Below are positions 35,143 to 62,600 of a stretch of DNA of 64,000 nt, piece after piece. Both the position numbers and the translations under genes were made by a program. This stretch comes from Auricularia sp. M13. Lineage: Eukaryota > Basidiomycota > Agaricomycetes > Auriculariales > Auriculariaceae. Numbering within the stretch: the first letter of the stretch is position 1; each line of letters begins with the position of its first letter. The notes under the pieces were generated by a model. It was given only the letters and a program-made list of their open reading frames with translations. It was not told the DNA's origin and ran no database searches. The stretch lies in assembly GCA_037042915.1 (NCBI GenBank), contig CM073196.1, positions 3,720,001 through 3,784,000 of the forward strand, written 5' to 3'.

Positions 35143-35422
35143 CTATGTTCTGTCCTTGCCCTCTCTGTCATACCCTATCCCCTTCACCATGTCCACAATC
35201 CATTGCCGTACATATGCCCTAAGTCGCATAGCCGTGAATTGCCTGTACATGCCAGTTTCTAATCCTGCCCGACCCCCCATCGTCCATCTCCCACATCATC
35301 AATCTAGACCCCTCCACTCGTTGTGAGCTCACATGTTTTTACGGTTGCCACAGCGATAATGTCACCCTTTGCAGAGCCAGACTCGTCAGTCAGAAGTCCT
35401 TGCATTTGTAGTTCGAACATCA
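35143..35422. other. Element 3' flank, no gene
   Basis: About 280 bp between the stop of the Cys-knuckle gene and the right subterminal array. Nothing but ordinary sequence is seen. Confidence 0.5.
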
Positions 35423-35590
35423 GGATTCGCGATTGAAACAGCGGGATTCGCGATTGAAACAGTTGGGTTTGCGATTTATACAGCGGGACTCGCGATTTAT
35501 ACAGCGGGACCCGCGATTGAAACAGCGGGGTTCGGGATTGAAACAGCGGGTTTCGCGATTGAAACAGCGGGGTTCGCGATTGATACAGCA
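35423..35590. repeat. Right subterminal tandem array, 21-bp unit, eight copies
   Basis: Exactly 168 bp, eight head-to-tail 21-bp units. Each has the form GG-RTTYGCGATT-KAWACAGCG, with the fifth to tenth bases and an A/T pair variable. The ATTCG and ACAGCG words also occur, in inverted orientation, in the 20-bp array at 27106-27230. Probable subterminal transposase sites. Confidence 0.8.
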
Positions 35591-39994: not shown

Positions 39995-40037
39995 CCCGAC
40001 TCATTTGAAGTTGGACCTCGAGGGCCTTCCTGGGCGC

Positions 40038-40104
40038 AGTCGCGACTAGCCAGGACTTTTCAGCAATCCAAAGCAATCCCTGTGATGCCGAGTCAGTCGT
40101 GACT
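40038..40104 (+). promoter_or_regulatory. Palindrome cluster 1 (AGTCGYGACT)
   Basis: AGTCGCGACT at 40038-40047 and AGTCGTGACT at 40095-40104, with a one-mismatch copy at 40117-40126. The full copy nearest the small plus-strand gene ends 79 bp before its ATG at 40184. Confidence 0.65.
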
Positions 40105-40183
40105 ATGCCTGCTCTAAGTCGCGCCTATTGCAGGTTGCTGTGTGGTGCATACAAGCCCCGGCCGTGCACACTCCTTCTCCGCA

Positions 40184-40561
40184 ATGACCTCTCCCAACCA
40201 AACACCGCAAGACGTCGCCAGCCTTCCCGCATTTAACCGCGACTACGAAACCAAGACTGCATACGATCTCATAGCGCAATTAGTCCTGCTAGTGGATTAC
40301 TAGACCACATTCACCGCCGCTCTCAGTCTCGCAATTGTTTTGTCCGAGGCCCGTCTCTTATGTGCATTTCCCTTTCGACATCTTACAATATCCGCGCAAA
40401 AGCCAATATACCAGGTTGCACGCAGACACACAACGAAAGAAAACATCAATTACATTGCATCTCTCAAGCGTCCGCATTGCTTTCTGCGGCTGGATCGAGC
40501 TCGTGAGATCTTCAGCGAAGCGTCCATGAGTCCTGTGAAATACCAGCCGCAAACGCTCTAG
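40184..40561 (+). CDS. Small element gene, unknown function
   Basis: Starts MTSPNQTPQDVASLPAFNRD, then YETKTAYDLIAQLVLLVDY, after which this frame stops at 40303. A second coding-looking segment in another frame ends NINYIASLKRPHCFLRLDR, AREIFSEASMSPVKYQPQTL at a stop at 40561, only 2 bp from the convergent neighbour's stop. An intron between the two is likely but I could not place it with confidence. The palindrome 79 bp upstream matches the spacing seen for other genes of the element. No domain is recognised. Confidence 0.4.
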
Positions 40562-40563
40562 AC

Positions 40564-40959
40564 TCACCAACTCCTAAGTCGCACTGTCGGCCTGACTCGG
40601 TCCGCGCTGCTGCCGCGCCTGCGCACCTCCTCGATCTCCGCGATCTCGGCGTCCGTCGCGACGTTGAGCTCGATGCAGCGGACGATAAGCCTCGTGATCA
40701 GCTCGTCCAACTGCGCTTCCTTGGCCTCGAGCCTCTTCGTCCAGTTATTGAACGTCCGTTGCATCTTGCAGAACTCGTTTCGGGCTGCTGGTAGGACAGA
40801 AGATCCAGGAGTTGTTCGTCCAACTTCTTGAAGTCAGAGTCCAAGCCGGTGTGGACGGCGTAGCGTATCTGCCCGAAGAGAAGGAGATATAGAGATGCGG
40901 GCACACGGCGGATAATGCGAGGAGGGATGTCCGTCGTCTCTGAGGCGGGCTCGGGCATT
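40564..40959 (-). pseudogene. Small helical element protein, one frameshift
   Basis: Starts MPEPASETTDIPPRIIRRVP (ATG at 40959), then ASLYLLLFGQIRYAVHTGLD and LDEQLLDLLSYQQPE. The natural continuation (NEFCKMQRTFNNWTKRLEAK, then EAQLDELITRLIVRCIELNV) is in another frame, with no usable intron between, so about one base is missing near 40765. The last part predicts an amphipathic coiled coil, ending near 40564. It shares a divergent promoter with the plus-strand gene at 41208, where a palindrome lies 76 bp before its ATG. Function unknown. Confidence 0.45.
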
Positions 40960-41035
40960 GCGGTGTGCGACGCGGCGAAGGAGAGTACAAGGTTTCTCAG
41001 AGTCGGTGATGCTGGCGCGCCGACCTCATTTCCAC

Positions 41036-41135
41036 AGTCACGACTTCTCTCTTGCTTCTCTCGCCGGCATAGTCGCGACTGAACAACCTCAGAAGTCGCG
41101 ACTGAACAACCTGTACAGAGGCACAAGTCGCGACT
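41036..41135. promoter_or_regulatory. Palindrome cluster 2, divergent promoter
   Basis: AGTCACGACT at 41036-41045, then AGTCGCGACT at 41071-41080, 41094-41103 and 41126-41135, between the minus-strand start at 40959 and the plus-strand start at 41208. Outer copies lie 76 bp and 72 bp from the two ATGs. A TATACAA word near 41170 may be the plus-strand TATA box. Confidence 0.7.
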
Positions 41136-41207
41136 ATCGACGCCAATCATGTGCAGTTCCACCCTTTCTTATACAAGCACTTACGCTGTGCTCCTCAGGT
41201 TTATCCC

Positions 41208-41846
41208 ATGTCCGGTGCCGTGCCCGACCGCTGTGGCCCTCTCTACGACCCCGCTTGCGACTCCGGAGGCCCGCGGACACCTTCTCCTCCTCCCCCGCGG
41301 GCGATACGGCTCAGCTGTTTGCTGCCCTGTCCAAGCTCGACTTAGTCCGCCAGAATTTAGACTGGACCACGCACCTCGGCCTGCTGTACGAGAAGGACCA
41401 GATTACTCAGGAGAACGCCCGCCTGAAGTCCATCTGCGATGTCCTTGAAGCGGATCTCGCCAAGGCTAAGGCATTGCAAAAGTCGCTCCGCGAGGAGTAT
41501 ACCCTGCTCTACGACACCTCACTCCAATTTCGCGAGCGCATGGTCTACTATCTCGTTCAGTTCTACAAGCTTTCGGACGCATCTCAGTGCTTGGAACAGG
41601 ACGAGTACCATCAGCGTGCATTCGCGGCCGCACAGGAATCTCGGTGCGTAGACTACTTGCTCTGACTCGGCCGGCCTTGTCTCACCAATTTCCTGTAGTC
41701 GGCGCGACATAGAATGCGCGCGGAGACAGCTGACCAAGGGCCATTCTCGCGGCGATTTTATTCCGTTCTACGCACGGGTGCATGCATACGATGCTACGTT
41801 TTCTGGACAAGGTCATGACGCCCAGACGACCAACGGGTCATCTTGA
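41208..41846 (+). pseudogene. Coiled-coil (leucine-zipper-like) element protein, one frameshift
   Basis: Opens MSGAVPDRCGPLYDPACDSG, GPRTPSPPPP. It then continues in another frame with SSPAGDTAQLFAALSKLDLV, NLDWTTHLGLLYEKDQI and a long coiled coil (LKSICDVLEADLAKAKALQK), then FRERMVYYLVQFYKLS. A clean 55-bp intron (41644-41698, GTGCGT to GTAG) joins RRRDIECARRQLTKGHSRGD, FIPFYARVHAYDATF, ending at 41846. The shift is at the CCT/CCC run near 41285 and could be slippage or an assembly error. The order of blocks suggests an element-encoded structural or regulatory protein; no enzyme motif is seen. Confidence 0.5.
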
Positions 41847-41954
41847 ACTTGCCGGTCAAGTTGTCACTGCTAAGCCCGCCGCACAATGCCACTTCGGTTT
41901 TGAGTCTGTACCGTTCGCCGTCGCGCGCGCGTCAGTGGCAAGTCTCATCGTCTG

Positions 41955-42241
41955 CAGTCGTGACTAGTATTGCGGACAAGTCGGGCAAGTCGTGACTATC
42001 GAGACAGTGAAACAGCTCAAGTCGTGACTAGAGACGGGAAATCGGTCAGCAGTCGTGACTAGTATTGCGGAAAAGCCGGGCAAGTCGTGACTATCGAGAC
42101 GGTGAAACAGCTCAAGTCGTGACTAGAGACGGGGAAATCGGTCAGCAGTCGTGACTAGTATCGCGGAAAAGCCGGGCAAGTCGTGACTATCGAGACGGTG
42201 AAACAGCTCAAGTCGTGACTAGAGACGGGGAAATCGGTCAG
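41955..42241 (+). repeat. Tandem repeat, three units of 95/96 bp
   Basis: Units at 41955-42049, 42050-42145 and 42146-42241, nearly identical, plus a decayed partial fourth. Each unit carries three AGTCGTGACT sites in the order CAGTCGTGACTAGTATYGCGG, CAAGTCGTGACTATCGAGAC and CAAGTCGTGACTAGAGACGG. The array lies upstream of the small gene at 42462. Confidence 0.85.
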
Positions 42242-42382
42242 CAGTCGTGACTAGCACTACGGGGAAAACGCTCAAGTCGTGACTTCTGAGAGCTGTCGAA
42301 GTCGCGACTGGCGGCATGCGAAGTGCGCCAAGTCGTGACTGTAAGCTGTGCCAGTCGTAACTTGAGTCTTGTAGTCGCGACT
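41956..42382 (+). promoter_or_regulatory. Palindrome cluster 3, about a dozen copies
   Basis: Nine copies lie in the 95/96-bp tandem units; more follow at 42242-42382 in a looser arrangement, mostly AGTCGTGACT. The last, an unmutated AGTCGCGACT at 42373-42382, is 79 bp before the ATG at 42462, with a TATAAG word near 42417 as likely TATA box. Confidence 0.65.
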
Positions 42383-42461
42383 CTACTGTGGACCAAGTCC
42401 GACTCCGGCCTCCTCTTATAAGTAACACGCCCGCCGTTCCAGATGTTCTTTCCATCTCACC

Positions 42462-42629
42462 ATGTCCTCAATGCGCTGTCTAATTGCGCGGCAAAACCAG
42501 CATCCCACACCGAACGGGGTGCCGCAGGCCTTCCTCAGTGCTCACGATGTTCGCGCACACCTCGCCTCACAGCACGTGACCATCAGAGATCTCATTGACG
42601 AGCTCAACACGCTCGCTGGCGGCCGCTGA
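42462..42629 (+). CDS. 55-residue element microprotein
   Basis: A single 56-codon frame: MSSMRCLIARQNQHPTPNGV, PQAFLSAHDVRAHLASQHVT, IRDLIDELNTLAGGR. The C-terminal half predicts two amphipathic helices. It has a TATA-like word about 40 bp upstream and a palindrome 79 bp upstream, the same arrangement as the larger genes of the element. This is my main reason for calling such a short frame. A splice to a downstream exon is possible but unseen. Function unknown. Confidence 0.45.
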   Translation: MSSMRCLIARQNQHPTPNGVPQAFLSAHDVRAHLASQHVTIRDLIDELNTLAGGR

Positions 42630-42696
42630 TTGCACTTTCAGGTAAAGTTTGAGACGATACTGCCAGCCGCATACTCATAGTATTTCATCGGTAGAA

Positions 42697-42897
42697 TCAC
42701 CCTCCTTTACCTCTTCGCGTTCGAACCTGTCGCCTTGGATGTACCTCATTCTCAATCCCGCATCTGCTTGTCGTTCTCCGTGTGACGCGTGCAATAAATG
42801 CTGTTGTCGCACTAGTTCTAAAGCCGCGCGAGTTTGTGCGAGACGCGCGATTTTTAGCGCCGGTCTCGCCGCTGGCACAAAGATTCAATCCGACCAT
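42697..42897 (-). CDS. Possible small minus-strand element gene
   Basis: MVGLNLCASGETGAKNRASR from an ATG at 42897 stays open for 66 codons; a competing frame (ALKIARLAQTRAALELVRQQ) is more helix-like and may be the real one after splicing. A palindrome lies only 13 bp upstream (42911-42920), unlike the 66-84 bp elsewhere. Support is weak. Confidence 0.22.
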   Translation of the reverse strand: MVGLNLCASGETGAKNRASRTNSRGFRTSATTAFIARVTRRTTSRCGIENEVHPRRQVRTRRGKGG

Positions 42898-42910
42898 TAT
42901 TTTCCGCGAT

Positions 42911-43021
42911 AGTCGCGACTAACGAGAAGCATATCTCGCGAGAGTCGTGACTATCATTAGTTGCATCTCGCGAGAGTCGTGACTATGATTATTCGCAGTC
43001 GTTACTGTGGTCATAAGTAGT
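42911..43021. promoter_or_regulatory. Palindrome cluster 4
   Basis: AGTCGCGACT at 42911-42920; AGTCGTGACT at 42943-42952 and near 42975. Decayed relatives follow (AGTCGTTACT near 42997, AGTCGGGACT near 43019). Two copies are preceded by the same TCTCGCGAG word. It lies just past the 3' end of the long minus-strand gene. Confidence 0.55.
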
Positions 43022-43177
43022 CGGGACTACCGCACTGGCGCATTCACTGCATTATATTGTCAAAGACACGACGTTGGACGCAGTCACTACAGCGGACGCA
43101 TCCCGCTCCCATTGGCAAAGTTCTCGAACTGGAGGAACAGCTCAAATCTGCGCATGAGCTCAGGATCTACCGGCGTG

Positions 43178-43461
43178 TGTTACGGCTCATTCGCTTTTCG
43201 CTCCTATCGCCGTTGGGCTTATCGGACCTCACTCGCGCCGACGTCATACGGACCGAGTCATCAGACCGAGACCCGCCGGCGCATGCGTGGCCCCGGCCTG
43301 CGGTCAGCGGTCCGGCCGGATCCGGACCCCCTTTATATACCGTGTGTTGTCCGCTCTTTGTATGCTAGATTCAAGCTGGTTTGCCCACCGCCGATACATC
43401 TCGTCCTTTTCCCCCCACCCGCAGAGCGTCCGTTCGGCGAGTATCCTCGGTCACCGTAACA
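43178..43461 (+). repeat. 5' LTR of the Gypsy element
   Basis: 284 bp, begins TGTTACGGCTC, ends CACCGTAACA. Contains TATATA near the U3/R border (about 43335). Confidence 0.9.
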
Positions 43462-43637
43462 TAAGCTCGAATCTACCCCTCCCTTACCGACGCTCCGCGT
43501 ATCCCCCGTTCCTTCCCCCGCCTTCACCCCGCGCCCTCGGTCAAGCTGTCGCACACCACCCCCGACGTCCAGGCCGACGGCGAAGAACTCGCCTCCCATC
43601 TCCAGCGCCTTTCGCTTTCCCCGACACCACCGTCAAG

Positions 43638-44740
43638 ATGCCGATGACGACCGAGGAGTTCGCTACCTCCATCGAAACGTCGTTGGTCAACGCCATCAAA
43701 TCGCTCGGACTCAAACCGGGCAACCCACCCACCAAAAACTACGTCCAGGCCCCGGAGGATTACGATGGGACCCGCGCCAACTACGAGACCTTCCGTCGGA
43801 CCTTGGAGCTCCACGTCAAAGGAATCCCCGGCGACCGCAACAAGATACTCGCCGCGCTCGGCTTCCTGACCAAAGGTGACGCCGACGCTTGGGCACAGAA
43901 CTGGGGTCAGCTCCACGACCTGGACTCGCCGGACCTCAAGTGGAGCGACTTCCTTCGCGACCTCGACGAGAAGTTCCTCGACCCGCGCATCGCCGAGCAC
44001 GCCCGCGAGGCGATCTCCAAGCTCACTCAAGGCCGAGGCGACGCCGACACCTTCTTCCTCAAGTTCGACGAGCTCCGCATCAAGGCCGGATTTACCAACC
44101 CGGAGTATCACGACATCGTTCTCGTCGACTACCTTCGGCGCAACCTCAAGCCGGCGCTCGTCCTCGCCGTGATGCAGTCGCACGAAATCTTCCGGACCAC
44201 CAGTCTCGCCACGGTCGAAGGACTTCGCAAGGCCGAGGTCGCAACCGAGGACAAGCTCGTCAAGATGGAGGCCGACGCCGAGAAACCGCTCGGATACTTT
44301 CAATTCCGCAAGTACGCCCTTGAGCAGGACCCGATTATCCGCCGCCACGGTGACCACGCCCGGCCACCAACTCTACGCCGCGCCCGGCGGCCAAGCCCTT
44401 CGTTCACCATTACACCGAGAGGGTGACTCAACCGGTGATTGTACCTGCCGCGGCGCCCGCTCCGGCGATCACCGCCCCAGCCACCACCGGTCCTGCGCAC
44501 GACCCGGACCCCATGGACGTGGACCGTCACCGCGCTCGGACCCTAGGACTCTGCTACCGCTGCAAGAAACCCGGCCATCTCGCTCGGGACTGCCAGGAGA
44601 GGAACTTCAAGGACGTCATCCGAGGCCTTTCCACCGAAGACATGGAGGAGATCGCTCGGATGGTCGAAGGAAAATCCACGCTCCTGGAGGAACACGCCGA
44701 GGAGACCGAGGACAAGGATTTTTCCGCCCCGCAGTGATTT
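43638..44740 (+). mobile_element. Gypsy gag region
   Basis: Capsid-type helical region opening MPMTTEEFATSIETSLVNA, with a retrotransposon-gag pattern (DWAQNW-like DAWAQNWGQLHDLD, FLRDLDEKFLDP). A single CCHC zinc knuckle, CYRCKKPGHLARDC, lies near 44550. Fossil; details of its state are not listed. Confidence 0.85.
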
Positions 44741-47700
44741 CCGCGCGATCCCTGTGGGAAGGCGACGGTGTGCCCTCCGTACCGAATACAGATGAACGTC
44801 TTGTCGATACGCACACCGAGCGTGAACACCTAAGACTCGCCGAGGTCCGACCCTCGGCCCTAAGGCAAATGAACATACCTCTCACCCTCACCTCCCTCGA
44901 CACCGGAGAACGGATCCCGGCCAAAGCTCTTTTGGATAGTGGATGCACGACCTCAAGTGTGGACCAGGCGTTTGTCAAACGCCGGCAGCTTACAACCCAA
45001 GCCGCAGCCGTCGTTCGGACCGTCTACAACGCCGACGGCTCGGTCAACGGATTTATCAAGGAGTACGTCGAACTCCTTGTGGTCGTGCGCGACGCACGCG
45101 GCCGCGAACACGGCGAACGGCGCGACTTTCCGGTAGCCAATCTTGGTGGAAAACACGACCTCTTTCTAGGATACGACTGGTTGGTGGAGCACAACCCGGA
45201 AATTGACTGGCCGAAGGGGGCGCTCACGTTCACCCGCTGCCCTCCTCGCTGTGGCATGCCGAACCCGGCGCCGAGCTCGGCCCGCTACCTCGCCAAGGAC
45301 TTCGCCTCACTCGCCGACGCTTTGGAGTTCGCGGCCGACGACGAAGAAGAGTACGTTCGGGCTTTCGAGTCTATCTCAACCCGCATTGAGCAGGCCGCCA
45401 AACCCGCCGTCGTCGCCGACATCCCCGAATACTACCGCGAGTACGCCGACGTGTTCGAAAAGAAGGAATTCGACAAGCTACCCCCCCATCGTCGGTGGGA
45501 TCACGAAATCAACCTCCGGCCCGGATGGGAGAACGACCGCAAGCTCCGCGGAAAGGTTTACGCCTTGTCGCCGAAGGAGACACAGGCGATGAACGAGTTC
45601 TTGGACGAGAACCTCGCGACGGGTCGTATTCGGCCGTCCAACTCGCCCATTGCATCGCCGCTTTTCTTCGTCGGCAAGAAGGATGGAGGACTCCGACCGA
45701 CTATGGATTACAGGAGGCTCAACGACCACACCGTGCGGGACTCCTACCCCCTCCCGCTGGTCGCCGACGTCATGACCAAGATCAAGGACGCCCGTTATTT
45801 CTCTAAGTTCGACGTCCGATGGGGGTACAACAACGTCCGAATCCGACCGGGAGACGAATTCAGGGCCGCGTTCATCACGAGCCGAGGTCTGTTCGAACCC
45901 ACCGTCATGTTCTTCGGCATGACCAACAGCCCGGCCACCTTCCAACGCATGGTGGACGACATATTCGGCGACCTTATTCGGCGGATCGTCCTTATCGTCT
46001 ATATGGACGACCTTTTGGTTTTTACCCGCACCTTGGAGGACCATCGGACCGCGGTTCGGGCCGTACTGGAACTGTGTCGGCAGACAGGCCTATACCTCAA
46101 ACTGGAGAAATGCGAGTTCGAGCAAGCCCAAGTCAAGTTCCTCGGCCTGGTTGTAGGAAACGGGCAGGTATCCATGGACCCAGTCAAGGTGGAGGCCATA
46201 CGCCGTTGGAACCCCCCGCGCAACCTGCGGGAGGTCCGGTCGTTCATGCAGTTCTGTAACTTCTACCGGAACTTCATCCCCCATTTCGCGCACATCACGA
46301 AACCCTTCAACCGTCTAACGGAAAAGGGGGTCGTATTCGAATGGGGCCCGGAGCAGCAGCAGGCTTTCGAGGACCTTCGCGACGCCGTGTGCAACGACGT
46401 TACTCTTCTTCTCCCCAGGACCGGGCCCCGTTCAGGTTGGAGACCGACGCATCAGACTACGCGGCAGGAGGAGTCCTCCACCAGGTCATCGACGGGAAGC
46501 TACGCCCACTCGGGTTCTTTAGCAAGAGCTTCAGTCCCGCTGAGCGTAATTACGAGATCTACGACAAGGAGATGCTCGCGATGATGCTTTGCCTCGAACA
46601 TTGGCGCCACTTCCTCAAAGGGGCCCCGCAGTTCCAGATATGGACCGACCATCGGAATCTGCAGTACTTCCGCGAGCCGCAAAAGCTCAACCGTCGGCAA
46701 GCTCGTTGGCTCACCGAGCTCTCCGAGTATGATTTTACATTGCACCACCGGCCGGGCAAGACGAACGTCATCGCCGACGAGCTGAGCCGGAACATGCCTA
46801 ATGAGGGGGCAGAAGACAACGCCGACGTTGTCCTCCTGCAACCGGACCGTTTCGTCAACTCGCCGAGGAGCACAACGGACCGTTGGACGTGATCATTCGG
46901 CAACTAGGACTCCGAGACGAGGACCACATCCTGGCCGAGGTTTGCAAGTACGCCAACGAACGCGACGAGGCAGTCAAGAAGGGCCTGCTTGCGTACCCGC
47001 AGGACTTTGTGGAGACGAACGGCGTCGTCGAGTACAAAGGCCGAGTCTACATCCCGCGTAACCGCCGACTACGTGAACGCATCGTCAGCGCATTTCACGA
47101 CACACCGATAGCAGGACATCCGGGCAGGTACAAGACTTTGGAGCTCCTTAACCGGTACTACTGGTTCCCCGGCATGACCGCGTATGTTGCGCGTTACGTC
47201 CGCGCATGCGACGTTTGCCAACGCTCCAAACCGAGGCACGGACCCCTGGCAGGACCCCTACACCCCAACGAGGCGCCGAGTGCTCCGTGGGAGGTCGTTT
47301 CCGCCGACCTCATCGGGCCATTGCCCGAGTCGTTTGGCTTCAACGCGGTCTTCGTCGTGACCGACCGCCACAGCAAGATGGTCATCCTCTGCCCGACGCA
47401 TGTTACGGTGACGTCGGAGGGTATAGCGCGCTTGTACCGTGACTTCGTCTTCAAACGGTTCGGCCTGTTCAAGAAGCTCATCAGCGACCGCGGCCCGCAG
47501 TTCGTGTCGGGATTCGCGAACGAGCTCTACAAGCTCCTCGGTATCGAGGCAAACCCGTCCACCGCGTACCACCCGCAGACCGACGGACAGACCGAGCGGG
47601 AGAACGCGGAGATCGAGAAGTACCTTCGCGCATGGACCAACGCCCGGCAGGATGACTGGGCCGACTGGCTCGCTATGGCCGAGTTCGCCATCAACAACCG

Positions 47701-48500
47701 CGCGTCCGAGGCGACGGGTACGTCTCCGTTCTTCCTCAATCACGGTCGCCACCCACGTATGGGCGTGGAACCGCGTCGAGCGGTCACCAACGAGTCGGCC
47801 GCCCAGTTCGCCCAGCGGATGGAAAGGACCTGGGAGGAGGCCCAATCCGCACTCACCAAGGCCGCCGCGTCCATGAAGACACAGTACGACCGGCGCCGAG
47901 GTGCTTCGCGACAATACAAGGTCGGCGACAAAGTGTGGCTCGAAGCGACCAACCTCAAGCTTGCGGTCTCGTCCAAGAAACTGGCCGAACGGCGCTTCGG
48001 TCCTTTCAAGATCCTCGAAAGTGTGGGTCATTCCGCCTTCAAATTGGAGCTGCCGGAGGCGTGGAAAAACCTACACCCCGTCTTCCACGAAAGCCTCCTC
48101 TCGCCGTACGTTGCGCCGTACGCCCGCACCAACGCCGCCCCGCCCCGCCGGCGCCGACCATCGTGGACGATCACGAGGAGTACGAAGTGGAGGAGATCCT
48201 GGATTCCAAGAAGCTCGGACGAGGCGTTGTCTACCTGGTCAAATGGGCCGGCTACGGGCGCGAGCACAACTCCTGGGTCCCCAAGGAAATCTCGGCAACG
48301 CGATCGGCGCCGTCGAGGACTTCGTCCGCCGCAACCCGGGTAAACCCCAGAACATCCACTCTCTCGTCTTCGACCGTGCCATATTTCCCTCCAACTTCTT
48401 CGAGCGCCACCATACCACAGGGATCGACTTCAACATCCCCGACCCGGTCACCGCGGCCCGCAGGGCGCGGGCCCTCGGCACGACGCTCGTTCGGTCCTAG
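44741..48500 (+). mobile_element. Gypsy pol region with chromodomain
   Basis: Aspartic protease (ALLDSGCTTSSVD) near 44930; reverse transcriptase with the YMDDLLVF catalytic motif near 46000; RNase H near 46440-46700. Integrase follows, with zinc domain (HPGRYKTLELLNRYYWFPGM, CDVCQRSK) and DDE core near 47100-47650. A chromodomain (EILDSKKLGRGVVYLVKWAG) near 48200 marks it as a chromovirus, the kind that targets heterochromatin. Fossil. Confidence 0.9.
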
Positions 48501-48511
48501 TAGGGGGGTTA

Positions 48512-48795
48512 TGTTACGGCTCATTCGCTTTTCGCTCCTATCGCCGTTGGGCTTATCGGACCTCACTCGCGCCGACGTCATACGGACCGAGTCATCAGAC
48601 CGAGACCCGCCGGCGCATGCGTGGCCCCGGCCTGCGGTCAGCGGTCCGGCCGGATCCGGACCCCCTTTATATACCGTGTGTTGTCCGCTCTTTGTATGCT
48701 AGATTCGAGCTGGTTTGCCCACCGCCGATACATCTCGTCCTTTTCCCCCCACCCGCAGAGCGTCCGTTCGGCGAGTATCCTCGGTCACCGTAACA
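48512..48795 (+). repeat. 3' LTR of the Gypsy element
   Basis: 284 bp, near-identical to the 5' LTR. Preceded by a short G-rich polypurine stretch (TAGGGGGGTTA). Confidence 0.9.
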
Positions 48796-51700: not shown

Positions 51701-51810
51701 GGCTGCGGCTTCGCCTTCGTCGACGAGGCCTGTCCACCCGCCTTCACCTGCGCGGTCGACGTTGATGCCGCCTGCGCGGCTGTCTTCTGCGCAGGCGGCT
51801 TGAGCGGGTC

Positions 51811-52665
51811 TGTCACGGCAGAGCGCTCGTCACTCGCCGAGACCGACGCCCAAGAGAGGAGAGAGGGACGAGGAAGAACGGACAAGCGATACAATTGACC
51901 AGACCAAACCTGGGGTACACGCATCTACACCCTACAACCTATATACCCTTCCCCCAGGGTCCGATGATCCGGTCCAGGGTGATCCCGGAGCTAAAGGGTC
52001 CATTCACCATCATCTCCCATGATGCCAACACCCTACCACACCTCCAATCGAACCTGGTCCGAGACAGGACAAAGGTGCCGAGGTATGCTATCCACATACA
52101 CACCCACCGAGGGCACGAGCCGGGAGGAAGGCACCTCCCGAGTGCACGGGGAGAGCGCCGAGCGGCTGAGGCCACGGGCCGAGGGTCCGAGGATGTAGCC
52201 GAGCTTGTACCAGGCGATGACAACCGGCCTACTATCCCTCCGAGGGGTGTCGCACCAGCGAGGAGTCCAACAGAGGCGTTCCAGACCCTCCGAGGTCGTT
52301 CAGGGTGGCCCACCGAGTTCGCCCGAGGTCAGAAGGGGATCCTAGAGTCCATCCCGAGCATCACAACACCCATACCCGACGCATACAGCGAGGGGAGAGC
52401 TGCCGAACCCTGGTCCGAGGATAAGAAGCCTCCACCGAGCCGAATTGGGGTATGCGCCGAGGTCGTCTCACCCCTAGACAGGTAGAGAGCGGCGCATCGA
52501 TCATATCCCGAGTTGAGCAGCCCGAGGCGTATAACCCTGGCCGAGTCTCCGTTCGAGGGTAAACAGTGCGCCGACTGTATGCAGCAGCGACCGAGCGCTC
52601 GGCGAAGCGGCGTAAAACCCGCGGACGAGCGGACAGAGCTTGCGACGGCCGTGATGACCGCAACA
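51811..52665 (+). repeat. 5' LTR (855 bp) of the non-autonomous element
   Basis: Begins TGTCACGGCAG, ends GATGACCGCAACA. Confidence 0.9.
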
Positions 52666-52834
52666 TAACCCCCCCTTCAAGCCGCGAGCCGAGGGAGTGT
52701 CCGAGAGAGGGAGGCGAAAGGCGGGGAGGACGAAACAACGGACCGAGGGCGCCGCGGACTGAATAGCAATTCAGTTCACGGTTTGACATAAAGCGTCGGC
52801 CTGTCAGTTTGCTTCTTGTCCTCATACCACCACC

Positions 52835-54280
52835 ATGCCCGCTACAGACCGCGTTGACAACGTCCGCGCCGACCAGCCCAGCAGCGGGGCGCCCGCCTGG
52901 GTGCCCGTGTTGGACGACTTTGTTCTTTCTCGCGCCCGGCCCGATGACCTGGAGGCCCGCGTCGTCGTCCTCGGCGACGCCGTCAACCGTATTGTCGCCG
53001 CGCTCGTTGACCCTGGGATCCCGCCCGCGCACCGTGACTTGGCCCGCCACCGCCAGCTTGAGTTCGAGACGGAGCGCCGCTTGTTGCTCGCGCTGTTGCC
53101 CTCCGCCCGTGTCCTGGCAGCCAGTCTGGCGGCGTGCTCGTCGCCGTCGGACGCGCTGCTCCTGCCGTCCATGACCGTGCCGCCGTCGCCGTCCGACCCT
53201 GTCCGTCCGCTGGCTTTGCGCTTGCCCCCGTTGCCGTCGGACGCTGCCTCCCGCCCGCGCTGCTCGGCGTTGAGGATTCCGCCCGGGCACCCGTTATACG
53301 CTGAGTGCAAGGAGCCCGCGCCGTCGTCGTCCACTGCTGCTCCGTTGCCGCGCCGTCCCGTACCGGCGTCGTCGTCGTCCCGCGCGCCGGGGCCGTCTTT
53401 CCCTGCGCGCTCGGCGCCGACCCCTCGTCCGCCGCGCTCGTCGTCTGCTGCCCGCGCGCCGCCCGCGTCCGCGCCACCACCGCCGACACTTCTCCACCAC
53501 CCGCGACGGCCGAGGACACCCCCGGCCGGTGTGTACGAGCGTCCGGCGCTGCGCGAGCGGCGTCAGGCGTGGGATAATGCGTTCGCCGACGGTCTGATCG
53601 ACCGCCACGGGGTCCCGACGTCGGTAAGTGCTTTGTTCTGTTGCTGCTGGTAGCGGGGTATTAACATTCGGCAGCCGTGTAGCCGATGCGTGGACCGCGA
53701 CGATGAGTGCCTTCCGGCGCAGGGGCTGGCGGCGTGCCTCGAGTGCTCGCGCCGGAAGGTGAAGTGCTCGTGGAAGGATCTGCGCGCGCCGCTCGGGTTC
53801 GGGACCAAGACCGGGAAGGGTTCCAAGGCGCCGGCGTCGGACACGCGTGCGCCGCCATCTCGCTCCCGCGCCGCGTCCGTCGTACCCCAGGCGCCCGCGT
53901 CGTCATCGTCTCGTGCTTCGCGGTCTCGGACCGCGAAGGAGAGTCTGCCTGCGCTGCCTATTGAGGCACCGAGTGCGGGCGTCACGGCGGCCGCGCCCCC
54001 GCTGCATCCCAACTTCATGGCGCAGTTCGCGGCGGCGTGGTCATTGGTTGCCGGGGGAGCCGCTCCGCCCGCGTCGTCGCATGTGTCCGTGCCTTTGCGC
54101 TCGGCCATGCGCCGCGGCACTCGTTTTGCGGCGGGTACGGCGACGCGGTCGTCCCGCTCGTCAGTTACACCCGGGGCGAGCTCCTCGCGCGCGTCGGGAC
54201 CACCTGAGTCGGGTCCGGAGGAGGAGGAGGAGGACGAGGACGAGGTGGAGGAGGTGGAGGAAGCGATGGACATGGACTGA
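52835..54280 (+). CDS. Zn2Cys6-like protein inside the non-autonomous LTR element
   Basis: Two exons (52835-53623, 53675-54280; 51-bp intron, GTAAGT to GCAG) give about 464 residues. The N-terminal 130 residues look folded and helical (FVLSRARPDDLEARVVVLGD, LEFETERRLLLALLPSARVL), followed by a Pro/Ser/Ala-rich linker. The intron splits the zinc region: PCSRCVDRDDEC, then AACLECSRRKVKCSW, giving C-x2-C-x6-C and C-x2-C-x6-C, the spacing of fungal Zn2Cys6 clusters with the basic RRKVK. The C-terminus is Ser/Ala-rich and ends in a run of Glu/Asp. It may be a DNA-binding protein captured by the element or serving it. It is not a canonical transcription factor: no fungal TF middle domain is seen. 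Confidence 0.7.
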
Positions 54281-55278
54281 GGATTCGGTTCGGCATCCTG
54301 TACTTAGTCTTTCTTGTCGCAATGGGCGCATGTACAGAATATAAATAGCTTTCTTGAATCTGGGACCGAAGTGGGAGTCCGAACCAGCGCAAAGACCAAT
54401 TGGACTTCTTTCTGCGGGTCCGGGACTTTGGCTCCAGTCGTCGGCGTATCCATCCTGGTGTGGCACCTTCCGACCCAGGCATCCTGCGGCCGACTCCAAG
54501 GTCCGGGAAAGGTTGGATTCCAGTCCTGTGCTGTGTCCTGTTGGTCCGACTGCGCCTGCGCACCGACCCATAAGTGATAAGGGAAATAAGGAACGTGTGG
54601 GATCCGCCGTCGGCGGCTGGGGTTCGCGCAGCGAGTGAAGTTACTGGTTGCTGGAGCTTCGGCGTGAGCTCGGGGCATCGTTAAACGTCGTACATGTCGT
54701 CCAGCCAGCGGCCGGTGGTTCGTGACGTCCTCGGGGCGAGGGTGTTCATATCTCGGGCGTTGCGGCGCGTGCATCCAGTCCATCCGGATCACGGCCGAGG
54801 CCCCATCTGCCGATGGCGTGCGAGAGGGGGGGGGTGTAACAGCTGTGGCTTGAGCGCGCAAGTCCAGACAACCGGGGTGGGGTTTTGGGCGTGGGCGAGT
54901 GTCTCGGTTTACTCGCCGAGGTGGAGGGTGCGAAGGAGGTGCTGCACCAGGGGTCGCCGAGGGCGGGATCGGGGTATCCCGCGCGACCGTGTGGAGAGGC
55001 TGTGCCAAGGGCTTGGTCATGCGCTGCGGCCGATGGGATGGAGATAGGGCCTTGGCAGCGGACGCCTCGCTTCTCGGTGTGGATGGCGACTCCGAGGGAG
55101 AAGGATGCGGGTGCCAATGGACCTCGGCCGGTGCACAGCGGCTAGCTGACGGCGAGGCCGGCCTGATGAGGTCGTCGGCGTGACACACGGGCGATAGTAG
55201 TCGGGAGGACGTCGCGGCCGTGTGGGGAAGAAGAAGAGGGATGAGCGTCGGTCGAAAGGGAGTGAAGGTTTGGTCTTA

Positions 55279-56135
55279 TGTCACGGCAGAGCGCTCGTCA
55301 CTCGCCGAGACCGACGCCCAAGAGAGGAGAGAGGGACGAGGAAGAACGGACAAGCGATACAATTGACCAGACCAAACCTGGGGTACACGCATCTACACCC
55401 TACAACCTATATACCCTTCCCCCAGGGTCCGATGATCCGGTCCAGGGTGATCCCGGAGCTAAAGGGTCCATTCACCATCATCTCCCATGATGCCAACACC
55501 CTACCACACCTCCAATCGAACCTGGTCCGAGACAGGACAAAGGTGCCGAGGTATGCTATCCACATACACACCCACCGAGGGCACGAGCCGGGGAGGAAGG
55601 CACCTCCCGAGTGCACGGGGAGAGCGCCGAGCGGCTGAGGCCACGGGCCGAGGGTCCGAGGATGTAGCCGAGCTTGTACCAGGCGATGACAACCGGCCTA
55701 CTATCCCTCCGAGGGGTGTCGCACCAGCGAGGAGTCCAACAGAGGCGTTCCAGACCCTCCGAGGTCGTTCAGGGTGGCCCACCGAGTTCGCCCGAGGTCA
55801 GAAGGGGATCCTAGAGTCCATCCCGAGCATCACAACACCCATACCCGACGCATACAGCGAGGGGAGAGCTGCCGAACCCTGGTCCGAGGATAAGAAGCCT
55901 CCACCGAGCCGAATTGGGGTATGCGCCGAGGTCGTCTCACCCCCTAGACAGGTAGAGAGCGGCGCATCGATCATATCCCGAGTTGAGCAGCCCGAGGCGT
56001 ATAACCCTGGCCGAGTCTCCGTTCGAGGGTAAACAGTGCGCCGACTGTATGCAGCAGCGACCGAGCGCTCGGCGAAGCGGCGTAAAACCCGCGGACGAGC
56101 GGACAGAGCTTGCGACGGCCGTGATGACCGCAACA
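55279..56135 (+). repeat. 3' LTR (857 bp) of the non-autonomous element
   Basis: Same ends as the 5' copy; preceded within 100 bp by purine-rich stretches (GAAGAAGAAGAGGGA and GAAAGGGAGTGAAGG), one of which is the likely polypurine tract. Confidence 0.9.
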
Positions 56136-56797
56136 GGGTCCGGCGGTACCGTCTGATGAAGGACGTCCGCATTTTGCGCCTCCCAGCGGGCGGCCTGCAC
56201 AAACGGGTGGTGCTCGTCAGATGCGGCCGACCTTCAGGCAAACGCTGACCGCGTACCCTTTCTGCCTCTTTTTCCGCTTCAAGTTCCTGTCTCGTCTTTC
56301 TTTTCGGACGAGCAGACCGCGACTCCTAAGCAATGTGAGGAATCGTGAGCACCATGTATAACAGACTGAATCAATGACATACCGTGGCGAGCATAACGTC
56401 AGAGACCGCGGGCCGTGCAACGGGGTTCGACTCCTCGCGGTCGGCATGCGTGCCCACCGAAGGCGGCTGGTGGACGCATAAGCCTGACATCACCATGAGT
56501 CGCAATCACAAGAGGCTTACCTGTGCTTCACGCGCGATGACAGAGGTACCCCGTTGTCCCTGCAATTGTGTTTCTACGTCGCGAGTCAGTAACGGAAAGT
56601 TATTATGTTCAAGCAGACGACGTACCATCCGCGAGCACTGAAGGCGCGTTGTCCGGAGCCTCGGGTCCTGGCGTAATTTTGCGCGGCTCGGAGACGGTGG
56701 AATCCTTAAGCTGCGCGCGCGTGAGAGGCATGGCGTGAGTACGACGTCGGGAGAGTCAGGACAAGGCGCGACTGATGCTGGGCGCGACTGACCTTTA

Positions 56798-57235
56798 AGT
56801 CACGACTGCAGCTGCGCCACCCGATCGTAGTCGCGACTACACGCCCGCGCTGGGCTGCCGCCAGCGCGGGCGTGATACGGTGCCTTGCGCGCGCGTGGGA
56901 GGTGAGCAAGAGGGATCCGGCGAATCCCGCAGAACGGTCATCACACACCCTATTTTGCACGCAATCTAGCCGAGCTAGTCACGACTACGATGAGACTGCT
57001 GCGGACGATCATGAATTCCATCTCCAATCAGATATCAGTCGCGACTTACGCATATGCGGTCAAATTTCAGTCGCGACTTCTCCCGCTCCAATCGACCTTA
57101 GTCACGACTTTTGGCTCTGCAATGATGTCCCAGTCGCGACTGCAGTATCATTGACTTCCTCGGACGACGCGTTGCTCTGCATCATGCAGTACTCAGTCGC
57201 GACTGAGCGGTGCGGCGCGTGGTCTAGTCGCGACT
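56798..57235. promoter_or_regulatory. Palindrome cluster 5, divergent promoter
   Basis: Nine copies: AGTCACGACT at 56798-56807, 56977-56986 and 57100-57109; AGTCGCGACT at 56829-56838, 57037-57046, 57069-57078, 57132-57141, 57195-57204 and 57226-57235. The outer copies lie 66 bp from the minus-strand ATG at 56731 and 84 bp from a plus-strand ATG at 57320. Confidence 0.7.
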
Positions 57236-57319
57236 TTACCCCCCCGTCGCTTACATACCCTAGAGGTCTGCGCGCATTTCAGAGACCTGCCCTCTTTCTC
57301 TCGCTGGTTCACACTGCAG

Positions 57320-58158
57320 ATGTCGCACTCACCTCAACTTCCGTGAGCTCGTCCTCGCATCCGCACTCTCATGACTGACAAACCTCTCTGAAGTTCTGAA
57401 GCACCGGTGCAGGAGCCTCCCGACGACGTTGGTAGCCACAGGTGTGTAGGCACACATTCTATATTGGGTATTCCTCATCGTGCGCATTAGACTCCGGCCG
57501 ACGGCGGATGCTCAGACGCGCCCGGTTAACGGTGCCTCTCAGACGGTCTCCAGTTGGTCATCAACATGGGACGACGACCAGACCGACGAGGTTCAGCATG
57601 GGTCCGGCTGGCCCGAACCTGTATTCCGCCGCATCAGGGGCTGGGGTCTCCCCCCCGCCCGGTGGCACCGACGCGAAATGGTACCACGACAGCGACGGCA
57701 GCGACAGCGACCGCGAGTTGCCCCCGGACGACGAGTTTCCCGACCCCCAGGAGGACCGCGCCTACCTCGAGTTTGTCTTGCACCAGCGGGACTGCGCGAC
57801 TCGCCGCCGAAATGCTGGGCTGCAGCCGCGGACTTGCACCAGACTGGACCCCTGCAACGACTGTGCCGAGCACGACGGCGCGTACTTTCCTAGCACGTTC
57901 TGGCAGACCATCAGCGGCGCCAGCCTGCAGGCGCACGTCGCGGAGTATCTCGCGCGCCGGCCTTCGCTTCCCGTCTGGCGCTCGACGCGGCTCCCCAACT
58001 TGCATGCTCCTCGTCTCATCTTTGGTCCGCCGCAGCATTCGGCCGCAACGCCCGTGGTCGCGGACCGATCGTCTCCCGCGCAGGAGGAGGGGACTAGCCG
58101 TCCTGTTTTTGGTCCTGAACGCCCGGTCACGGAGAGCGACATCGAGCTGAGCGACTGA
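57320..58158 (+). CDS. Acidic element protein of unknown function
   Basis: The main exon runs from about 57598 (MGPAGPNLYSAASGAGVSPP) to the stop at 58158, 187 residues if that ATG is used. It contains DAKWYHDSDGSDSDRELPPD, AYLEFVLHQRDCATRRRNA, a Cys pair region (CTRLDPCNDCAEHDGAYFPS), FWQTISGASLQAHVAEYLAR and an acidic end (TESDIELSD). A short first exon from the ATG at 57320 (MSHSPQLP, then a GTGAGC donor) would place the start 84 bp from a palindrome like the other genes; the splice into the main exon was not resolved. I do not recognise the family. Confidence 0.5.
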
Positions 58159-58265
58159 GAGGTGAGTGATTAAGTGCTATCCTCGTTTCTCATCCTCACA
58201 CTTTGCCAATCAGACGACCAGCGCACGGGAGAGGAGATGGGAGCCAAGGCATGTATACCGTGATG

Positions 58266-58992
58266 CTAAATACACTGCCACGCCAACTTTTCCGAGTCGT
58301 ACATTTCTTGAAGCAAGGACTCCCCAGCCTCATGAAGCGTGAGCAGCTCTCTGAGCCCGTGAGCAATATCATGAGCACGCTGCGCGAGTTCGTCCAGCTC
58401 GCTCTCCTCCGACTTGATGCGCCGACGCCACGCTTCGTGCCAGCCTGCCTGCGCTATGTCGAGAACCTGCTGGGCCAAATTGGCCTTTTTGCGTAGTTCC
58501 AAATGAACTTTTGCCTGCTTCTTGCTGTTGAGCATCGTTTTGAGAAGGCGGGTCGTGTATTCCGTCCATGCGGCGTCATCATCGACGTCGTGGGCCTTCC
58601 ACCGCGCCAAGTCGGCGCGGAGAGCCGCGGCCGCTGCTTGCAAGGGCGTCGAATCCTGGATCTTTGCAGGACTGCCAAGTAGCTGCAAAACATCGGTGCA
58701 TTTAGGCAATGGGTGGTCTGCAGGGAGCGAACGAGAACGTACCGATGTAGTGCATGGCAGTGGATCCAGCTCTCCGCGACGTTGTCTCCTGCGTTGTTTC
58801 TGCGTGTCTTTGCGAGAGTGCCAGCGTTTCAAGGCTGACAGTCTCTCCTGCTCCGCATGGCTGCGAGGACTTCGGCTGAGAGAAACACGAGCAGGAGCGC
58901 CGGACGACGCACCTTGCGTAGTACTTGCGGCGGGCGCGCCTGCGCGCCTCTTGGCGCTCCTCCTCGGTGAGGTACTTCGGCGGTCGTCCCAT
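58266..58992 (-). CDS. Basic/coiled-coil element protein (MGRPPKYLTEEE type)
   Basis: First exon MGRPPKYLTEEERQEARRRA, RRKYYA, a basic AT-hook-like start (GRPPK) with a charged helix. A 37-bp intron, short for this genome, joins SRSPRSHAEQERLSALKRWH, and the second exon continues KDTQKQRRRQRRGELDPL and LPKCTDVLQLLGSPAKIQ. A long helical region (LRADLARWKAHDVDDDAAWT, SELDELAQRAHDIAHGLREL) ends at 58266. Small proteins opening MGRPxxYxTxEE are, as far as I recall, common beside transposons in mushroom genomes; the role is unknown, possibly DNA binding. No clear palindrome lies at the usual distance. Confidence 0.55.
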
Positions 58993-59234
58993 GAGCTGAA
59001 GGAGAGCCTAAAAGACCACTTGACAGTCGATTCCCGAGCGGTCAGTTCACAAGTGTGAATGGAATGGAAGAGAGGAGTCGCCGGCTTTCTCCCGCAACTA
59101 TGAACTGCATGGCCTCCAGCCGCACTGTTGGAAGATATGCAACAGAAAATTAGTGCACACTGAAGGGCATATACACTCGATTTGTTTCCCTTCATTATCG
59201 CGTGCTGAGGGGCGCGGGACGGACTACAGGAGAA

Positions 59235-59545
59235 CATCCCAGACCTTCTGGATCGAAATCCGGCTTTTGGCTTCTGGATCGAAACGCGCCACTTCGCGCG
59301 CATTTCGAAACTGGTTCAGAGGTAGCATGTGAAGTGCAATTGCACGATGTTATGAGGGATGGTGTACATTCATTCAGCCATACTGTAATGTCTTGGGGAC
59401 TTCAGCAGACCACTGGCCAAAAGAAACGCTTTCCGGCTTCGGGATAAAAACCTGCTCAGGCTTCTGGAGAGAAACCATTTCTCATTTCGGGACAGAAACA
59501 CAGTTCAGTCGCGACTCGGGACAGAAACACAGTTCAGTCGCGACT
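59235..59545 (+). repeat. Degenerate ~29-bp repeats upstream of the KDZ transposase
   Basis: Words of the form TTCTGGATCGAAA, TTCGGGATAAAAAC, TTCTGGAGAGAAAC and TCGGGACAGAAACACAG recur irregularly. The last two units (59488-59516 and 59517-59545) are an exact 29-bp duplication, each ending in AGTCGCGACT. Confidence 0.6.
59507..59545 (+). promoter_or_regulatory. Palindrome cluster 6 before the KDZ transposase
   Basis: AGTCGCGACT at 59507-59516 and 59536-59545; the second ends 71 bp before the ATG at 59617. Confidence 0.65.
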
Positions 59546-59616
59546 AATTTGGATGGCGATGTGTTCATCCGAGACGCGTTTCTAGACTCCGACCCGTCGT
59601 TCTATTCGCCGTCACG

Positions 59617-62600
59617 ATGAGCGCCGCGTTCCGCACAGGCACAGGGACCAAGCGCCGGCGCGCGGGCGCGCGTGCAGACGCAGCGGAGCGCGTTAATGCA
59701 GCGCTCGCGGATCCCGACCGACCGCCCCCGCCCGTGAACCTGGACGACTACAAGTTGGTGACCAAGTCACAACTACCGCGCCGCCGCCGATTGCCCGGTG
59801 AACCCAAGCTACCGCGCGGTATTCATCGTGACGTCGCGCTCTCTCTCCCTGGCGGCAAGAAACTGTTCCAGAAACCCGGGATCCCGCCATCTGCCGTGCC
59901 GGGGCGATCGGCCACAGCGGCGCTCTTCGCAGCTCGCCAGGAGGCCCCCCGCCCTGAATGGTTCGACGTGGACGCTGCGCTCGGTGTCGACCAGGACGAC
60001 TCCGACGACTGGGACCGCGATCACGGGTTCCATGTGCATATACCGAAGGAGTCGAACAAATCGAGGCACCGTCGGCGACGCGTGGCGCAGAACCTGCGTT
60101 GGCGGGAAATGGCGGCTGAACGACTCCCTCGACTGTACCTGGACCTCAAGCACGGGCAGGGCGTCGAGGATATCGCGATGTGCGGCTGCGGGAAAAGCAG
60201 GGCGCTGAAAGTGATGTGTGCGGACTGGGCAGGTGCTTGAAACCCGTGCGGTTCGTGTCGTCCGTGCAGATGCTAATTGAACTGCTGCAGGCTCGCACAG
60301 CTTATTCATAACGATTTGCGACTGTCGCCCCGCAGCAGAGCAGCTCATCGCGCGCGGATATTTCCCTTGCGCTCCGATCTGCCCGTCCATGGCGTTCCAC
60401 TTGGATCTCCTGCATTTCATCTCCATCCATTCCCTCCTCGTTGCCCCGAACGTGACGGCCTGGGCAGAGACCCTCGAGACTTTCTGGACGCGCGACGCGC
60501 CGCAGGAAAAACTTACGGTATTTGCAACGTGAACGCATTTCGCCAGCGACTTACGGATCGACCGCTGCTTTCAGGGACGGCTGCGCAAGCGTCTAGGGAT
60601 GGCGCTTACCTGGTACCAGGTCGTTCTGAACAAGGCGGACCTTCTTGTCGAGTCGGAACTGCACAGTGAGCACCGCGGTTGCGTTTGAGGAATGTGCGCC
60701 GCCGACAGCTGATGACAGCGTGATTTCCCCTGCTACAGAACATCGCCCAGCTCACGGGAACAGCGTGCCGCCCGAGCGCGACGACGACGGGGCAGCAGAT
60801 CGCGCGCAGCAAGACGACGGGCACGCCGCGGCTGTCAATCGCCGCGCCGTCGTGCGCGGCGAGGGCGATGGGGTGCAGGCAGTCGCCGCCGGCGACGGCG
60901 TCGGCGACGGCGACGGCGTCGGCGACGGCGACGGCGACGGCGACGGCGTGGAGGCGACTGCGCAGCGCCGTCCGTCCGCATCTCTGAGACAGAAGTGCGC
61001 GTTATGCTTCGGCGGCGAAAGACCTGCGCTTGTGCATTCAAAGTGCGTCGCGGTATCGCTCAATTTTGTACAGGGCTGACGCTGTGCACAGAGCGCACGT
61101 CATAGTCTGTCTCGATGCCAATTTTGCGCAGAAGCGACGCAAATGCGCGGATGGCGACCCACCCCTCGAGTTTCTTCCGTCGCGCTTTGCGACGGAGGCT
61201 GAGGCGTCCTCGATGGCCGCCGAGATGGAGACTTTGCAGAAACGACCAGTCCGGCGGCGCAGGAAGGGCAAGGCCGCGCGCGTGAACGATGAGGTCCTCG
61301 ACCAGTGCGAGCAGTCGTTCATCGCCGCGCAGGAGAAGGTCACAAAGGCCTCTAAGAATTATTTTGCGGACACTGGCCTGATGGCCTTGCTCTGCCGTCA
61401 CGACCGCGTCCTCTGGGTCGTCAGTATATCCACACCGGGCAAGCGGCAGTTCTACGCGCTCACGCTTCTGCGCAAGCTCGGCGAGGAGATCCCCCGGCAC
61501 TGGAGGGTCGGTTTGCTCTACGACATCGCGTGTCAGCTGAGTCGTGGCATAGAAAAGGTCTGTGACAGTTGTGCTCTCCCGAAGATGACGTGCGCTAACA
61601 GGACATTCAGTGGGGTTATCTTCCAGAATTTGCGGATCGATTCGAGTTCGCTGTTTCGGTCTTTCACGCGTACGGGCATCAGTGGGAATGCCAAGTCGTG
61701 TTCCACCCCCGCAAATGCGAAGGCTTTGGCTTGAGCGACGGCGAAGGGTGTGAACGGTTCTGGAGCTCTATTCGACACCTGATATCCGGGCTTCGCGTCT
61801 CTGGGGTGCGTGTACAATCCCGCACAGTATGAGGCAAATTAACTGACGCGTGCAGTTCTACCGCCGCTTGTTTGTGCTGAACCGTCAGATGGATGCGCTG
61901 AGCAAGAGCGCGCTGTGGAAAATAGGCACGTGGTTGCGACGGAAGTACCTCGAGGCCCAGAGGCGTCTTGGTGAGGCGCGGGCGATCCTGTTGGGCACGG
62001 GCGTGCCGCGCGTCGAGCTGCGCGCTCAGTGGAAGCTGCAAGTGGATGCACAGCTGGCGAAAAACACTCGTATGCTCACTTCACGGCACCCGAAGCATAT
62101 GTACACGCTGACCGCATTTCAGGACTTTCGGCCAATGCGGGCGACAAGGCGATCGACGAGATCCTTGTCGCCCTCGCGACAGTGCAGGACTACAAGGACG
62201 AAATCCGCGACCTGCGCAAGGAGCTACGGAAGGCGCACGCGCTCACCGCTGGCCAGTTGCAAAAGACCACCGCGGCGCTGGAAGCCGCGCGACGAAACCT
62301 CGAGACGACGGAGTCGCGCGTCGTTGCATTACACGCGACGTTGGGCACCGAGCGCTGTCGCCGCCTGGAGGAGATGCGCGGCAATGCATACGTGTGCGCG
62401 GCGTCAATGCACGCGCTATGCGTGCGGCCATTCGGGCTAATCTCGTCAAGCACAAGTTCGAACATCGCAAGGTGGAACGCGCGTACAGGCACCAAGTTCT
62501 CGGTGAGTTGCATTGCAGTGCAATAGGCCGGCACGCATACTAACGCCAGGTCCAGAGGCCCGCGAGCACAGCCAAACGAAAGACGCAATCCAGCGTCGCG

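Follow-up and report, generated by a model that had tools for sequence, protein, structure and literature searches.

Palindrome arrays beside the predicted genes of a KDZ-type transposon in Auricularia: putative sites for a shared regulator

What does a short palindrome do that recurs in front of the predicted genes of one large transposon? The question is raised by a 64-kb stretch of the genome of the mushroom Auricularia sp. M13 (contig CM073196.1, positions 3,720,001 to 3,784,000; hereafter the window, to which all counts of motif copies refer), part of which is occupied by an element of the KDZ (Kyakuja/Dileera/Zisupton) type. An earlier note on this DNA had described copies of the palindrome AGTCGCGACT placed 66-84 bp before seven gene starts on both strands, with none in host genes or in a neighbouring integrase element, and had read them as a core-promoter or operator code shared by the whole element. 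Here we report that the motif is arranged in intergenic arrays, and we consider it somewhat better than an even chance (a probability of roughly 0.55) that these are element-private arrays of putative binding sites, through which a symmetric protein would control the transposon's genes together.

A palindrome confined to the intergenic DNA of one element

The motif itself is real: the window holds 15 exact copies of AGTCGCGACT against 0.13 expected from dinucleotide shuffles, all 15 of them within 40038-59545, and no other perfect 10-bp palindrome is as common (15 of 94; the runner-up has 4). When one mismatch is permitted the count rises to 39 (3.69 expected), with 37 copies inside the same interval and the other two at 2438 and 22354. 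A wider unit, AGTCRYGACT, is present 34 times, with GC (15), GT (15), AC (4) or AT (0) at its centre. All 34 copies lie inside 40038-59545, in six hand-drawn intergenic stretches of the transposon that come to 2,940 bp together; the top 8-mer of these stretches is AGTCGCGA, with 30 matches (two per palindrome) against none in the comparison sequence, and most of the remaining top 8-mers overlap this motif. The remaining 44 kb, in which at least one gene looks host-like (it has a shikimate dehydrogenase domain), contain no AGTCRYGACT at all.

This confinement bears on the idea that the sites belong to a host transcription factor, having been captured and multiplied by a transposon that the host factor would then activate in some cell state. 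Host-factor sites of the CGCG type are known elsewhere: in the available text on BANP, an animal host factor, the palindromes are likewise centred on CGCG and carry CpGs, although their flanking halves differ from those seen here, and the window has two copies of the BANP site TCTCGCGAGA, both of them in array A4 (below). Given the absence of AGTCRYGACT from the other 44 kb, which includes a host-like gene but covers only a small part of the host genome, we regard it as improbable that the sites serve a host factor.

The copies form arrays with a preferred spacing

While the motif reported in the earlier note is present where expected, the picture of single sites has to be replaced by one of arrays, into which the 37 copies that have no more than one mismatch are grouped. 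The seven arrays, given without strand, are as follows.

40038-40126, array A1: AGTCGCGACT (40038), AGTCGTGACT (40095) and AGTCGCGCCT (40117)
41036-41135, array A2: 4 copies, between the divergent starts 40958 (minus) and 41208 (plus)
41956-42382, array A3: 15 copies, that at 42353 with two mismatches, upstream of 42462 (plus); the longest array, 427 bp
42911-43028, array A4: 5 copies, that at 42997 with two mismatches
56764-56838, array A5: 4 copies, that at 56780 with two mismatches, upstream of 56731 (minus)
56977-57235, array A6: 7 copies at intervals of 60, 32, 31, 32, 63 and 31 bp, upstream of 57320 (plus)
59507-59545, array A7: a 29-bp tandem repeat with 2 copies, upstream of 59617 (plus), the start of the KDZ transposase gene

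Six of these arrays serve all seven starts. Part of A3 (41950-42254) is a 96-bp tandem repeat with 3 sites per unit. Within A4, a 32-bp duplication (42933-42996) carries TCTCGCGAGA directly beside AGTCGTGACT; TCTCGCGAGA is identical to the animal BANP site given in the available text, which is likely a coincidence.

Adjacent copies yield 26 spacings (two-mismatch copies included and the 96-bp units counted once), or 24 once two duplicate pairs are dropped; among these 24, a spacing of 31-32 bp occurs 11 times and one of 22 bp 4 times. Excluding the tandem block, the copy at 42975 and A7 leaves 21 intervals, 8 of which measure 31-32 bp; random placement within the same array spans gave 0.86 on average and reached 8 in none of 5000 trials. 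Even when the best 2-bp bin could fall anywhere, random placements averaged 3.5 intervals and never reached the 8 observed (0/5000). This copy-to-copy spacing is at least as well supported as the spacing to the gene starts described in the next section (0/5000 and 1/2000, respectively). Three turns of B-DNA measure about 31.5 bp, and the 31-32 bp pitch suggests that a putative protein would bind successive copies on the same face of the helix.

Tandem slippage might instead have spread the motif passively, as minisatellites whose location at gene fronts is a by-product, and the 96-bp array of A3, the 29-bp repeat of A7 and the 32-bp duplication in part of A4 are what such a process would leave behind. 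Against this, the motif occupies seven separate places, its half-sites are kept while spacers differ, and the pitch is constant in A6 although the spacers there are unrelated (six comparisons, shuffle p 0.09-0.85). Since the A6 spacers are unlike, recent duplication does not explain the pitch in that array, and we judge passive spread to be very improbable.

Array edges lie at a narrow range of distances from predicted starts

The genes whose starts are considered here, together with one further predicted gene of the element, are listed below; the seventh start is at 40184. Open reading frames are abbreviated ORFs.

40567-40958, minus strand: predicted small gene, start 40958, 86 codons to the first stop; no Pfam match at cutoff
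41208-41665, plus strand: predicted small gene whose long frame requires an intron; no Pfam match
42462-42629, plus strand: predicted 55-codon ORF
48796-56731, minus strand: predicted large gene, start 56731, with presumed exons flanking the long terminal repeat (LTR) element at 51811-56135
57320-58158, plus strand: predicted gene of 8 codons, a presumed intron and ORF 57436-58158; no Pfam match
58269-58994, minus strand: predicted small basic protein with an N terminus that by eye resembles an AT-hook or basic region; no Pfam match
59617-64000, plus strand: KDZ transposase gene, extending past the window end

For the starts at 40184, 40958, 41208, 42462, 56731, 57320 and 59617, the nearest AGTCRYGACT is 79, 77, 72, 79, 66, 84 and 71 bases from the ATG, respectively. 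At all seven the ATG is thus 66-84 bp beyond the nearest unit, which simulations reached for seven of seven in 1 of 2000 runs. The simulations drew on first-order Markov versions of the 200 bp downstream and left the 19-bp window free to fall anywhere, while array directions and the class of copy were taken from the earlier note, which makes the figure of 1/2000 somewhat favourable. The distances given in that note agree with ours to within a base, the one that differs belonging to a start that had been set at 40959, one position off; its range of 66-84 bp is correct from array edge to ATG but passes over imperfect copies (one or two mismatches) that lie closer to the ATG. Both strands are served, as had been said, for example by A2 between its two divergent starts.

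Several of these distances depend on how sites and starts are called. Three rely on one-step variants of the palindrome (40184, 40958 and 56731), five have an earlier ATG between motif and start (40184, 40958, 41208, 42462 and 59617), and six of the seven are affected in one or both ways. From the seven starts, in the order given above, 39, 86, 45, 55, 40, 8 and 207 codons can be read to the first stop, and because most of these ORFs are short, most of the gene calls lean on presumed introns.

TATA-like boxes are found at offset 33-34 for 41208 and 42462, with weaker ones at offset 43 for 40184 (CATACA) and offset 18 for 57320 (CATACC). Where present, they sit between array and start, which places the arrays upstream of the core promoter and suggests that they would act as upstream activating sites or operators. 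The part of the earlier proposal that spoke of an operator-like or activator-like code therefore fits, the arrays being window-private, intergenic, on both strands and adjacent to predicted starts. Core promoters fit less well, because the arrays hold many copies over up to 427 bp and the TATA-like boxes are nearer the start; as to the fixed distance to a transcription start that a core promoter should keep, the measure at hand is the 66-84 bp between array edge and ATG, these being ATGs and not mapped transcription starts.

The position of the arrays also bears on whether they are transposase-binding repeats that serve transposition from subterminal sites, as in Spm/En or Ac, any effect on transcription being secondary. 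Transposons with clustered short motifs close to their ends are well known: TnpA of Spm/En is an element-encoded DNA-binding protein with multiple short sites at the element ends, and A1 may adjoin the left end of the present element. In contrast to Spm/En, however, the sites here stand at gene fronts inside the element, where they span 19.5 kb (9.6 kb without two LTR inserts), and no copy in the window reaches beyond 59545, which leaves at least 4.4 kb to the right end. The arrays are thus not confined to the ends, and a primary role in transposition seems to us distinctly unlikely.

Substitutions spare the outer half-sites in most copies

The 37 copies that carry one mismatch or none show 19 inner-CpG transitions and no outer-CpG transition; the outer forms AGTTGCGACT and AGTCGCAACT have no occurrence each, while the two inner forms together have 19. 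In the 34 AGTCRYGACT copies the inner two bases vary, the outer AGTC and GACT halves are invariant, and at least one CpG is retained in each. One other mismatch is carried by three array copies (40117, 43019 and 56764) and two mismatches by three more (42353, 42997 and 56780).

The four KDZ parts have CpG observed/expected ratios of 1.20, 1.20, 1.15 and 1.26, and since they are not CpG-poor, general CpG decay does not account for the pattern of variants; constraint on the AGTC and GACT halves would do so. We set CpG decay aside as the sole cause of the variants, given that CpG is not lost region-wide and that no outer-CpG transition occurs at one mismatch or fewer, with one contrary case, the two-mismatch copy at 42353, which does have an outer-CpG transition.

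The variants also have a polarity. Read toward the gene behind, the variants of A1, A3 and A5 retain AGTCG as their distal half and carry their changes in the proximal one, and polarity is uniform within all five arrays that contain at least two variants (A1, A3, A4, A5 and A6), those of A6 being oppositely oriented relative to 57320, that is, towards 56731. This uniformity, noticed post hoc, may reflect duplication.

The element that carries the arrays

Domain content identifies the element as a KDZ transposon on two counts, a KDZ domain and a CxC cluster preceding it. PF18758 (KDZ) is matched in ORF 60988-61731 (E 1.1e-27, 97.6 bits against a cutoff of 26.6) and PF18802 (CxC1) in ORF 60281-60529 (E 1e-07, 32.5 bits against 26.9), where a CxC2 match of 24.9 bits stays under its cutoff of 27. 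Between the CxC and KDZ ORFs, the transposase gene contains a CGGCGA hexamer repeat (60882-60948). A weak Ulp1-like match, below cutoff, falls in ORF 63467-63997, at the transposase end, for which BLASTP showed no relation to a Ulp1-like ORF at 39182-40000, and a scan of viral contigs returned no relatives of the KDZ domain. The accessory ORFs match no Pfam family at cutoff, and this holds for the scanned ORFs of the large minus-strand gene at 48796-56731. The small basic protein of 58269-58994 begins MGRPPKYLTEEERQEARRRARRKYYA and is a candidate DNA-binding protein of the element.

Two later insertions interrupt the element.

43178-48795, plus strand: Gypsy-like LTR retrotransposon, with the 5-bp target duplication GCGTG
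51811-56135, no strand given: LTR element in the presumed minus-strand gene, with the 5-bp target duplication GGGTC

Their LTR pairs are 99.6% and 99.8% alike, respectively. The GGGTC duplication joins the right part of the element to 48796-51810, and the minus-strand ORFs on either side of 51811-56135 may be one gene starting at 56731; the GCGTG duplication in turn joins 48796-51810 to the DNA left of 43177. By these target duplications and the common motif, the leftmost arrays would belong to the same element. Its right end is past the window, and a left end was not found within it.

A candidate regulon and the points against it

In the reading that we favour, a symmetric (dimeric) DNA-binding protein would read AGTC-RY-GACT, and a pitch of some 31-32 bp, close to three helical turns, would allow a number of dimers to bind jointly, perhaps cooperatively, immediately upstream of each gene's core promoter. 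With several dimers beside each core promoter, a single factor would control the transposase gene and the accessory genes as a regulon, whether by activation or by repression. The binder would most likely be encoded by the element itself, candidates being the CxC zinc-cluster part of the transposase and the basic protein of 58269-58994.

A number of observations weigh against this proposal. The anatomy of the motif rests on one copy of the element, and no protein is tied to the motif. Many of the copies arose by tandem duplication (in A3, A7 and part of A4), so that the 34 cannot be counted as independent events; likewise, many of the 19 inner transitions are tandem duplicates, leaving about 8 independent ones as counted by eye. 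The two-mismatch copies break a half-site, that at 42353 through an inner and an outer CpG transition together, and those at 42997 and 56780 also deviate in one half. Imperfect copies lie nearer to the ATG than the array edge does (40117 at 57 bp, 56764 at 32 bp and 56780 at 48 bp, distances taken by hand), five of the seven start ORFs hold at most 55 codons unless spliced, and at three of the seven starts the gap between array and start has no TATA-like box. No gene start was called behind A4, and some 150 bp beyond that array lies the start of the Gypsy insert. Finally, a test for 10.5-bp phase gave p 0.0018 under a uniform null, but its statistic is flat across periods of 9-12.5 and the value falls to 0.13 on distinct spacing values; we make no claim of helical phasing, since 10.5 bp does not stand out in the test and the signal is lost when distinct spacings are used.

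Comparison with VANDAL21 and with other KDZ elements

The closest anatomical parallel is with the VANC21 motifs of the Arabidopsis element VANDAL21, which, in the available text of PMC5735166 and PMC10398659, are short, mostly non-coding, dense, rare in other elements and grown in tandem; some VANC motifs precede a gene and others are intronic, with no fixed pitch stated in that text. The same two papers describe the VANC21 protein as causing loss of methylation over the whole element. Dense, private, non-coding arrays and tandem growth are shared with the present element, private here meaning within this window. In contrast, the VANDAL21 motif YAGTATTAY is non-palindromic and without CpG (PMC5735166, available text), and the 31-32 bp pitch, the link to gene starts, and the transposon group and kingdom all set the present arrays apart. 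We note a resemblance in anatomy and claim no membership.

This likeness raises the possibility that the arrays are anti-silencing landing pads, to which an element protein would bind so as to clear silencing marks element-wide and not promoter by promoter. In its favour are the VANC21-type anatomy (short, one-family, non-coding, dense and tandem-grown, to follow the available descriptions), the presence of TET/JBP genes in some mushroom KDZ elements in the available text of PMC12730594, and the CpG kept in each of the 34 copies; this last point is uninformative, since a calculation by hand puts the expected number of AT-centred copies below two in any case. On the other side, the matches of 50 scanned ORFs, 32 of them in the KDZ parts of an element that is incomplete in the window, include no VANC-type or TET/JBP domain in Pfam, and the association with predicted starts is a more promoter-like trait. 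We regard this explanation as tentative and, on balance, unlikely. Equally doubtful, in our view, is a combined form in which a methylation-gated regulon is controlled by an element protein that reads the CpG palindrome arrays, switches the element on and lifts silencing, a private code of the VANC kind in fungi that keeps to gene fronts and has a fixed pitch.

The present element resembles other fungal KDZ transposons in its KDZ transposase with CxC cluster and in its large size. Apart from any taxonomic search, the KDZ and CxC domains, the LTR elements and introns that appear small give the host a basidiomycete-like character. Accounts of such elements cover, in their available parts, termini, target duplications, transposition and TET/JBP genes (PMC12730594, PMC12810828), with target-site duplications of 7 bp for Kyakuja and 8 bp for Zisupton (PMC12730594). 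Transposon-encoded TET/JBP enzymes are offered there as a means of silencing escape, a function that is not experimentally validated in that work (PMC12730594, available text). Internal motif arrays are not mentioned in the available text of PMC12730594, PMC12810828, PMC7641404 and PMC8889193. More widely, among the matches listed in a literature search that left most subscription papers outside, no title or abstract describes such arrays or such a regulon, and the exact 10-mers occur, again among the matches listed, only in papers that look unrelated by title and start of abstract.

If kept in other copies, the arrays would amount to a self-contained regulatory code for large multi-gene KDZ elements; they would mark the limits of element and genes and supply a bait site for pull-down of a DNA-binding protein, and how KDZ elements escape silencing would become testable.

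Other repeats and occurrences of the motif

Elsewhere in the window, tandem arrays of 20-bp and 21-bp units (27103-27230 and 35416-35589) flank an integrase-core ORF (PF24764 in 29251-29886). The two are alike when one is inverted (local score 40, against a maximum of 25 in 300 shuffles and 11 on the direct strand), and the pair is possibly the neighbouring element's own private arrays. A solo-LTR-like insert at 38258-39281 (TGTTACGG...CCGTGACA), with AGCAC on both sides (partly by eye), sits between a Ulp1-like ORF (by eye) and a minus-strand DDE_1 transposase ORF (PF03184, 36400-37461).

In a scan of other genomes, two motif copies 18-26 bp apart were found in 6 viral-contig and 78 prokaryote-genome stretches. 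Of these 84 loci, 73 have 2-3 copies and 11 have 4-8; in some the pitch is 15 bp, as in short tandem repeats. Several contigs of one metagenome-assembled genome, Bdellovibrionales bin.161 (L008, L009, L011, L035 and L038), carry AGTCRYGACT at a pitch of 29-30 bp.

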